Assembly (NCBI GenBank): GCA_001778095.1
Contig: MFGA01000023.1
Location: 1-46,810, forward strand
Reading direction: 5' to 3'
DNA from: Candidatus Falkowbacteria bacterium RIFOXYA2_FULL_38_12
GTDB taxonomy: Bacteria; Patescibacteriota; Patescibacteriia; XYB2-FULL-38-15
DNA: 46,810 nt
Shown here: positions 9,616-16,616 of the stretch, one piece after another
How the letters are laid out: every line of letters begins with the position of its first letter
Numbering within the stretch: position 1 is the stretch's first letter
The notes under the pieces: generated by a model
The model's database searches: none
Told to the model about the DNA's origin: nothing
What the model saw: the letters and a program-made list of their open reading frames with translations, nothing else
Program-made: the position numbers and the translations under genes

Positions 9616-9633
9616 AAAATTGCTATCTCTCCC

Positions 9634-9777
9634 TTATAATAATCTTTCTACTGCAATTTCCATATTTTGGCTGTGGCTTTACAAAAATTATTCAACAGAT
9701 ACTCTGTATATGCTTCATAATTTTTGCTTCGCCTCGCCTAAAATCTGGAAATTTCGTAACGAAAGTTATTATGCGGG
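9634..9777. mobile_element. MITE-like foldback element, copy 1 (between glpX and aldolase)
   Basis: TAATAATCTTTCTACTGCAATTTCCAT...GAAATTTCGTAACGAAAGTTATTATGC, same termini as 16298-16454 in opposite orientation; boundaries approximate. Confidence 0.65.
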
Positions 9778-9781
9778 AGGG

Positions 9782-10732
9782 CTATTTTTTAATTCCAAAT
9801 ATATCGTGATGGGCTTCTATGTAACGCAAAGTCCCCGATATCCCGCGCAAAACCATAGAATGGGTGACAATGCAATTTTTATGAAAAGCAACCCCGCCCA
9901 AAAGAGGCCCGTCAATCACTCCCGTTGCCGTAAAAGTCAGTTGCCTACCCTTTGCTAAATCGCCGGCGCGATAAATAGTTTTCGTATCAAGCCCAAACTC
10001 GGAAACTTTCGTCGCGTGCTTTTCGTTCGGGGGTTTAAATCTGCCGAGCAATTCTCCACCCATTATAGAAATCGCGGTGGCGGCCAAAACTCCTTCAGTA
10101 CTTCCCCCGATACCCATCAACATATCAATTTCATTATCATTAAAACAAGCTGAAATCGCGGCGGCCACATCTCCATCGGTAATCAACCTCACTCGCGCGT
10201 TTGCCGCTCTTATTTGGTTAATCAACTCTTCGTGTCGCGGTCTATCTAAAACAACTACCGTAATCTCTCGTGTGTCTTTTCCTAAAGCCTTGGCTGTTTT
10301 TTTAATATTATCCGCAACCGGAGCATCAAGGTCAATTACCGAAGCCGCTTCTTTACCCACGGCAATTTTTTCCATGTATGTGTCCGGGGCATTTAACATA
10401 GAATTGCGCGAACCGGCAACAATAACGGAAATTGCGTTATATCTGCCAAAAGCAACGCTATCGGTCGCCTCAAGCGGATCGACAGCCAAGTCCATCTCCG
10501 GACCATTACCCTTGCCAACTTGTTCTCCGTTATATAATTCCGGCGCTTCATCTTTTGAGCCCTCGCCGATTACGACCGTTCCCCTAAAGTCCATTTGGTT
10601 AAAACGAGAACGCATCTCATTTACAGCCGCGCCGTCGGCTTTTTTTGCTTCCCCCCGCCCAATCCATTCTGCTGCGGCGATAGCGGCCGCTTCAGTCACT
10701 CTTACGAATTCTAAAGCTAAATTTCTATCCAT
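9782..10732 (-). CDS. glpX: class II fructose-1,6-bisphosphatase
   Basis: RVTEAAAIAAAEWIGRGEAKKADGAAVNEMR, VVIGEGSKDEAPELYNGEQVG, MLMGIGGSTEGVLAA. Confidence 0.93.
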   Translation of the reverse strand: MDRNLALEFVRVTEAAAIAAAEWIGRGEAKKADGAAVNEMRSRFNQMDFRGTVVIGEGSKDEAPELYNGEQVGKGNGPEMDLAVDPLEATDSVAFGRYNAISVIVAGSRNSMLNAPDTYMEKIAVGKEAASVIDLDAPVADNIKKTAKALGKDTREITVVVLDRPRHEELINQIRAANARVRLITDGDVAAAISACFNDNEIDMLMGIGGSTEGVLAATAISIMGGELLGRFKPPNEKHATKVSEFGLDTKTIYRAGDLAKGRQLTFTATGVIDGPLLGGVAFHKNCIVTHSMVLRGISGTLRYIEAHHDIFGIKK

Positions 10733-14834: not shown

Positions 14835-16304
14835 TTAAAATTTTCCCAGATCAAGCTCATTATTAAATTTAATCTCTTTTACAAAATCAGGCATATGACT
14901 GACTAAAATGATTGCGCCGTCGTAGTTATTTATAGCCTTGGCAATAACCGGAATATGACGAAAATTGATATGATTTGTCGGCTCATCCAAAACTAAAAGT
15001 CCCGGTTTCATTAATACCAATCTGGCAAAAGACAATAATCCTTTTTGACCTTCTGACAAATGAGATATCTTGAGACCCATTAATTCACCGGTAATCAAAA
15101 GATTGGCGGCTACGGAACGCATTTGCTGAATATCGCCCCCCTCTATGATCGCGCTCTTTAAAGAATCAAAAACAGTTTGATCATAATCCAGTGTCGCGAA
15201 GTCTTGGCTATAATAACCCACCCTTGTATCTTTCAATATGACTGCCCCTTCACCGGAATTATTTATCAAAGAGCGTAATAGCGTGCTCTTGCCAATGCCA
15301 TTTGGTCCGGAAATCAAAAGTCTGTCTTTTTGTCTTAATAAAATATCCACTTCTTTTATTACCGGCTCGTGATTTTTTATTATCTTTACCGATTTAAGAG
15401 TTACCACATTGCCGATAATTCCTTGTGAGGGAATATTAAAATCTTTAATGGTTTTATCTTCTCTTCTAACGTCCACTTTGTTTTCTTCCAATTCCTTAAT
15501 TTCTTCTCTCAATTTACTCGCCAGTCTGCGCATCTTTCCTCCTTTGTTGGCAAAAAAGTTTACCTTTTCCTTGTTGTCCAAAATCTCTTTTTCCAATTGA
15601 GCATTTTTTTTAATTTCCCTTTCTATTCTGCTGTTTATTTCTTCCACTACCGAATAATAATCGCCAACGTAAGTTTCTATTTTCTTGGTAAAAATATCAA
15701 GATAAATAACTCCTTCGGTAAAACAATTTAAAAAATCGGCATCGTGGGAAATAACTATTACCGTTTTATCATACATGACTAAAAATTCTATGAGATGATC
15801 AATGCCGGTCTTATCCAAATTATTAGTCGGCTCATCCAAAAGTAAAATGTCGGGATTTTGAATAAGAGCATAGGCTAATAAAATTCGCGCCTGCTGGCCA
15901 CCGGACAAATCTCTAACCTTTCTATCGATGGGAACATCAAGATCAACCGCATTCATCACCTTGCTTATCTGGCTTTTGATATTGCCCGGAACATTACCGT
16001 TAAAAGATTTGGCGAAATAATTTTCAACCGTTAAATCCAAATCTTGTTTATCAACCATTTGCGATGCTGTGGCGATAGTCGCGCTGTCAGTAATAAAAAC
16101 ATTGCCTTTTGTCGGCTTTAACTCCCCTTTTATCAATTTAAATATTGTGCTTTTCCCGGCGCCGTTTTGTCCCATTAGGGTTATTTTCGAGCTTTTACGC
16201 ACGCAAAAACCCACTTCATCAAGAACTGGTTTTTTCTCCTCATATTCAAATGTCAGATTATCAAATCTTAGGATTACTTCTTCTGCCATAGTATTTAGAC
16301 CCAC
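14835..16304 (-). CDS. ABC-F family ATPase (true start probably MAEEV at 16289)
   Basis: Two ABC domains: GQNGAGKST/LSGGQQARILLAYAL/LLLDEPTNNLD and GPNGIGKST/LSEGQKGLLSFARL/LVLDEPTNH. Confidence 0.92.
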   Translation of the reverse strand: MGLNTMAEEVILRFDNLTFEYEEKKPVLDEVGFCVRKSSKITLMGQNGAGKSTIFKLIKGELKPTKGNVFITDSATIATASQMVDKQDLDLTVENYFAKSFNGNVPGNIKSQISKVMNAVDLDVPIDRKVRDLSGGQQARILLAYALIQNPDILLLDEPTNNLDKTGIDHLIEFLVMYDKTVIVISHDADFLNCFTEGVIYLDIFTKKIETYVGDYYSVVEEINSRIEREIKKNAQLEKEILDNKEKVNFFANKGGKMRRLASKLREEIKELEENKVDVRREDKTIKDFNIPSQGIIGNVVTLKSVKIIKNHEPVIKEVDILLRQKDRLLISGPNGIGKSTLLRSLINNSGEGAVILKDTRVGYYSQDFATLDYDQTVFDSLKSAIIEGGDIQQMRSVAANLLITGELMGLKISHLSEGQKGLLSFARLVLMKPGLLVLDEPTNHINFRHIPVIAKAINNYDGAIILVSHMPDFVKEIKFNNELDLGKF

Positions 16305-16454
16305 TGCATAATAACTTTCGTTACGAAATTTTCAAATTTTGAGGAAATTTTGGCATAAATTTTTGAGGCAATATGGTTATATTGGCAAAAAAATTTAGGG
16401 CAAAATTTACCAAAAGATGGAAATTGCAGTAGAAAGGTTATTACGCAGTAGGTC
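16298..16454. mobile_element. MITE-like foldback element, copy 2, with 9-bp direct repeats
   Basis: TIRs GACCCACTGCATAATAACTTTC / GACCTACTGCGTAATAACCTTTC; flanked by perfect TAGTATTTA at 16289-16297 and 16455-16463. Confidence 0.8.
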
Positions 16455-16616
16455 TAGTATTTATTCTATATTAATAACAAACCTCCGGAAGAGGTTCGTT
16501 GTTAGAAATTAATAATCTCATGTTTTTGACCTGCTGTCAATATTTGTTTGAATATAATCTAACTGCGCTAAAAATTAATTAAAGCGCTATTTCTTTTCCG
16601 TCTTGCAAATGTATCG

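Follow-up and report, generated by a model that had tools for sequence, protein, structure and literature searches.

Among bacterial MITEs, ERIC and the Correia elements (CREE, NEMIS) are described types (review PMC10969869; CREE PMC2649163), and TIMEs are miniature elements derived from Tn3 (PMC4133298). The window analysed here, a stretch of 46,810 nucleotides from Candidatus Falkowbacteria bacterium RIFOXYA2_FULL_38_12, carries next to an ABC-F ATPase gene an element that is short (the size criterion applied was 50-500 bp), lacks a transposase gene and has terminal inverted repeats, as expected of a MITE. No account of such a family was found in the open-access literature searched, and within that literature it seems to be undescribed. 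We consider it well supported, at a probability of roughly 0.8, that the window copy belongs to an old, abundant and gene-less MITE family of Patescibacteria with terminal inverted repeats of the IS5 family (DDE_Tnp_4 group).

The foldback segment opens with GACCCACTGCATAATAAC at 16298 and closes at 16454 with the inverse of GACCTACTGCGTAATAACC, as seen in the sequence and in a repeat search, and copies of TAGTATTTA bracket it at 16289-16297 and 16455-16463, all exactly where the original prediction had placed them. Its boundaries of 16298 and 16454 hold for the foldback, but the ends shared by the family are A16297 and T16455, or TA..TA at 16296-16456 (Table 1). Terminal repeats, a hairpin and no gene inside 16297..16455 bear out the non-autonomous, MITE-like nature that had been proposed. 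Folded as DNA, the 157-nt strand forms one long hairpin of -39.8 kcal/mol, compared with -12.5 +/- 2.5 kcal/mol for shuffled sequences (z = -10.9; 0/200 shuffles as stable). No Rfam family scored above its gathering cut-off for the window element, the best matches being chance-like miRNA hairpins far below it.

Table 1 Features of the window copy, its neighbourhood and a second copy (positions in the window)
Feature	Position	Strand	Basis or remark
MITE copy, AGACC...GGTCT, 159 bp	16297..16455	+	Canonical orientation +; own-genome BLAST copies, R1 149.7 bits, foldback
TA..TA version of the copy, 161 bp	16296-16456	+	
Left terminal inverted repeat AGACCCACTGCATAATAAC	16297..16315	+	Type of the IS5-family elements TAGACCTGTTGCGTATTAA, TAGACCTGTCCCTTAATAA, TAGACTTGTTGCATATTAA
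Right terminal inverted repeat AGACCTACTGCGTAATAAC	16437..16455	-	Repeat and end searches
Left core motif TTTCGTTACGAAA	16316..16328	+	Almost unchanged across 30 own copies and the three end classes of other genomes
Right core motif TTTCTACTGCAA	16425..16436	-	Near-invariant
Inner stem and loop	16329..16424	+	Sequence variable, compensatory changes; 17/20 inner-helix pairs changed on both sides in own copies
Left TAGTATTTA	16289..16297	+	Contains AGTATTT (7 bp), which abuts the element end A16297
Right TAGTATTTA	16455..16463	+	Second flanking repeat
Second element copy, other core subtype	9624..9784	-	R1 126.4 bits
ABC-F ATPase gene, ATG at 16289	14835..16289	-	Pfam ABC_tran 6e-45, 2 stretches; start conserved in relatives
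ABC-F leader hairpin ACGAACCTCTTCCGGAGGTTTGT	16477..16499	-	Conserved in relatives L061, L072, L062
Promoter-like boxes TTGACA-17-GATTAT	16512..16540	-	By eye; TTGACG-17-GATTAT in L061 and L072

Similarity and end-pattern searches of the same genome (914 kb, 23 contigs, 98.6% complete) yielded the further copies that a BLAST search had been expected to reveal: about 33 elements on many contigs, together about 0.6% of the genome. A query of 175 bp gave 63 matches, and the pattern of the element ends was found at 65 ends compared with 9 for the reversed pattern. Most own copies are 160-172 bp long and fall into several inner-stem subtypes, and in addition to these elements there is a minimal palindrome of 53 bp. 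Joining the flanks of the copies revealed no clearly interrupted reading frame. At six loci (L104, L107, L111, L117, L118, L124) the element-terminal TAG is the in-frame stop of an adjoining frame that is open for at least 60 codons, and at three more (L099, L100, L120) it possibly serves a neighbouring frame in the same way; several insertions therefore lie exactly at gene ends. At L104, L108, L119 and L121 one arm or both are partly replaced or interrupted by small nested hairpins CCCCGCnnnnGCGGGG, possibly a second, smaller mobile palindrome. The same inner stem also occurs between other arms (GGGGCTGTCGCCGAATGGTC; GGGACTGTCGCCGAATGC), once in this genome (L010, C15:989-1088) and twice in genome G112 (L137, L149). 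On contig C6 a gene (L104:551-1330) lies between two element copies about 860 bp apart, and by eye its translation resembles a RodZ-like protein, with a helix-turn-helix and a membrane anchor.

The longest reading frame of the ABC-F gene starts with a GTG that lies within the element, at 16304, but relatives begin at a conserved ATG corresponding to 16289 (MAEEV/MAENV/MAEDV), the start that had originally been preferred. The left 9-mer reaches outward as far as the first base of this ATG and includes it. The relatives retain TTGAC[A/G]-17-GATTAT and the leader hairpin without the element, so that the ABC-F leader was split by the insertion and not replaced by it; the claim that the gene had lost its 5' UTR to the element does not hold, as promoter-like boxes and leader hairpin still lie upstream. 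The element is seated between this conserved putative promoter with its leader hairpin and the ATG, and with an insertion at this place the ABC-F mRNA would carry a 159-nt hairpin immediately 5' of the start codon, with a likely effect on translation or mRNA processing. Base changes in relatives across 16477-16540 preserve the pairing of the leader hairpin, a possible ABC-F attenuator.

Leader attenuators often control ABC-F genes, and an RNA hairpin of high stability just ahead of the ATG could be read in the same way, the element itself being a cis-regulatory leader (an attenuator or riboswitch-like RNA) of this gene. We regard that as very improbable: the same element occurs in about 33 unrelated places, orthologous ABC-F genes, searched for the segment as an ordinary 5' UTR, keep their leaders without it, and the Rfam comparison gave no family above cut-off.

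The perfect 9-mer had been interpreted as a target duplication. The repeat itself is present, but it is peculiar to the window copy, the only one among 28 own copies examined with a 9-bp flanking match. In 25 of the 28 the TA dinucleotide is the only direct repeat at the ends, and in one the repeat is 5 bp; TA was partly a search criterion, so that its frequency does not count as independent evidence, but the lack of 9-bp repeats in the other copies does. Since the other copies lack it, 9 bp is not the duplication of the family. For random pairs of TA flanks the chance of a 9-bp match is about 6e-5 per copy, or about 0.002 over 28 copies, and the match in the window is probably not pure chance.

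We grouped about 130 elements from this and other genomes according to end type and scored the agreement between their two flanks against that of shuffled flanks. Class T (AGACC...GGTCT), to which the window copy belongs, has a 3-bp repeat outside A...T in 8/30 own copies (expected 2.9), always AAT or ATT, and a 3-bp ANT repeat in 13/33 copies from other genomes (expected 3.9). Class G (GGG...CCC), the 5-bp class with ends GGGTCTGTCGCCGAAT, shows 5-bp repeats in 11/41 (expected 0.5), and in class R (GAGACCTCTGCAAAA and the like) 4/19 have 4-bp repeats (expected 0.2). For class T, a 3-bp ANT duplication is indicated both by these flank counts and by related insertion sequences, and an ANT target also accounts for the TA found on both sides of the elements. 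It weighs against a MITE of IS5 type that the ANT repeat is preserved in only about a third of the copies and that both the window copy and one partner insertion sequence (L267, AAT/ACT) are without it. At the window copy the flanking triplets are TTT (left) and AGT (right), and on either side an AGTATTT abuts the family end.

It is improbable that the element is a DDE transposon with a true target duplication of 9 bp (or of 7 bp, AGTATTT). The 9-mer is perfect and rare by chance, and a single TAGTATTTA would put the leader 17 nt from the ATG, close to the 16 and 18 nt of L061 and L072; this spacing would make a long duplication a slightly better explanation of the window copy than an older tandem repeat. 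Had the repeat pre-existed in tandem at the ABC-F leader, the empty site would read TAGTATTTAGTATTTA or similar. On the other side stand the TA-only ends of 25/28 copies and the single 5-bp case, the ANT enrichment of the class and the ATT/ATT flanks of two partner insertion sequences. As to the empty sites that had been anticipated, one was found for another copy: of two sister genomes in the same genus, one has the site filled (G002:C10:14660-14819) and the other empty (G001:C78), beside a pseudouridine-synthase-like gene (named by eye). The flanks match at 81% and 85%, and the pair leaves the exact duplication unread. For the window copy the comparison covered family-level relatives, whose spacer is not alignable, and at the L072 element L061 and L072 could not be usefully aligned.

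The preferred reading, a MITE with IS5-family ends, draws on insertion sequences in related genomes. One of 1023 bp (L257/L261) has the ends TAGACCTGTTGCGTATTAA and a 299-aa transposase that matches DDE_Tnp_4 (2.7e-28) and, below its cut-off, the NCBIfam IS5 model; its relatives have the ends TAGACCTGTCCCTTAATAA (L267) and TAGACTTGTTGCATATTAA (L263). These IS5-family elements (L261, L267, L263; 1.02-1.04 kb) share the 18-19-bp end type of the window copy, and two of them (L261, L263) are flanked by ATT/ATT. Arm variants of the small elements, e.g. TAGACTTGTTGCATAATAA and TAGCCTTGTCCCCTAATAA, track these ends. We take the DDE_Tnp_4-group partner to belong to the ISL2-like subgroup of IS5. An IS1182-family element (L253; IS1182 model 351.6 bits) has the ends GAGACCTCTGAAAAAGTC, like class R. 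The full-length insertion sequences with matching inverted repeats that had been predicted thus occur in related genomes but not in that of the window, where no autonomous insertion sequence with matching ends, no relative of the L257 transposase and no DDE_3 or DDE_Tnp_1 transposase was found, so that there is no resident mobiliser.

The element is presumably mobile, and would be moved in trans by an IS5-type transposase, of which the present assembly has none: the enzyme would attach to the two ends, cut the element out or copy it, and place it in A/T-rich targets (ANT, appearing as TA on either flank), chiefly in intergenic positions. An IS630/Tc1-mariner origin with TA as the duplication was considered and rejected, DDE_3 being absent from the own genome and ANT enriched over TA alone. 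The core motif was not seen at the ends of elements with DDE_Tnp_1 transposases. For class G no mover was found, and a Tn3 origin was rejected, Tn3 transposase being absent from 18 family-carrying genomes.

Within their different ends, classes T, G and R contain the same core, made up of TTTCGTNRCGAAA and, on the opposite side, TTTCTRCTGCAA, and their median lengths are 158-162. A single core accompanies three end types, whose duplications measure 3, 5 and about 4 bp. The two arms of an element are 94% identical (foreign copies), compared with 53-67% between elements of a class. In own copies 34/53 consensus pairs have changed on both sides (shuffles 23.9 +/- 1.9), and the binding of a transposase to the ends cannot explain the covariation of the inner helix (Table 1).

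The arms also differ between strands. On the canonical strand G.U pairs outnumber A.C 70 to 21 overall (p 2.5e-7 if independent) and 47 to 11 in foreign copies, both mutational directions feed the excess (A>G 30, C>T 31), and strand-neutral pairing of own copies gives 82 to 33. Because the foreign copies were collected with a strand-aware model and copies share ancestry, the counts are not fully independent and the p-values are weakened. Host transcription was rejected as the cause, as the G.U:A.C ratio does not flip with the direction of the neighbouring gene (same 8:5, opposite 13:3). The fold of one strand, single-stranded, seems to be constrained and selected during the spread of the element. 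The hairpin is paired along nearly its whole length and its asymmetric core is invariant; the tolerance of G.U on one strand hints that this strand may have a role in the life cycle while single-stranded, be it as RNA or as DNA.

An IS5 transposase by itself leaves the covarying inner stem and the strand-biased wobble unexplained, and one may go further and see a structured mobile element with canonical-strand RNA or single-stranded DNA as substrate or product, DDE transposases being only a recent or secondary mover. The G.U excess in both mutational directions and under strand-neutral pairing, its independence of gene direction and the covarying inner stem speak for this; the close match of the outer ends to the inverted repeats of insertion sequences, the class-specific repeat lengths, as in ordinary DDE transposition, and the partly dependent counts speak against it, and we think it rather unlikely.

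The family is not confined to one genome. Covariance model R1, trained on 30 own copies, found it in 70/381 genomes of the taxonomic class, almost always at full length, and in 39/287 genomes across the phylum, copies per genome being lower bounds. Related elements of about 187-197 bp with the ends TTAGAGCCTGTTCAAAATCTCATGTCG and a partly different core occur in other classes of the phylum (L325-L333, L336). Carriage by phages was rejected, as none of 15 exact-motif matches on viral contigs (pattern scan) fits the covariance model. Patescibacteria genomes are tiny, yet this one holds about 33 gene-less copies, and roughly 14-18% of the genomes sampled have the family.

More tentatively, the whole could be a phylum-wide mobile hairpin whose core and one-strand fold (RNA or single-stranded DNA) are selected and which has used at least three transposase systems through concerted change of its arms, the 3-, 5- and about 4-bp elements being homologous; we hold this possible but doubtful. 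The joining of one core to different ends and duplication lengths would mean that an element living off transposases is able to switch from one of them to another, with foldback arms that change together as a possible route, and the strand-biased tolerance of G.U is a testable sign of a single-stranded working form in these MITEs. One core with several end types and a one-strand fold is more than a routine MITE.

By description, and not by sequence, the family resembles ERIC and the Correia elements, which are likewise gene-less imperfect palindromes of 100-170 bp that number tens or more in a genome, lie between genes, frequently within transcribed leaders or trailers, and form stable RNA folds. 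Unlike them, it combines one core with several kinds of ends, is spread over many families of a phylum and has partner insertion sequences with matching ends. Class G recalls TIMEs in its GGG...CCC ends and 5-bp direct repeats, but only ends and repeat length are alike, the 18 genomes mentioned being without the Tn3 transposase. The resemblance of IS1182-family ends (GAGACCTCTGAAAAAGTC) to the GAGACCTCTGCAAAAC class concerns other members of the family and not the window copy. With the DDE_Tnp_4 group of the IS5 family the window copy has in common the 18-19-bp inverted repeats, and its class the probable A/T-flanked 3-bp duplication; unlike those insertion sequences the element encodes nothing, and the inverted repeats are common to both while the interior is not.
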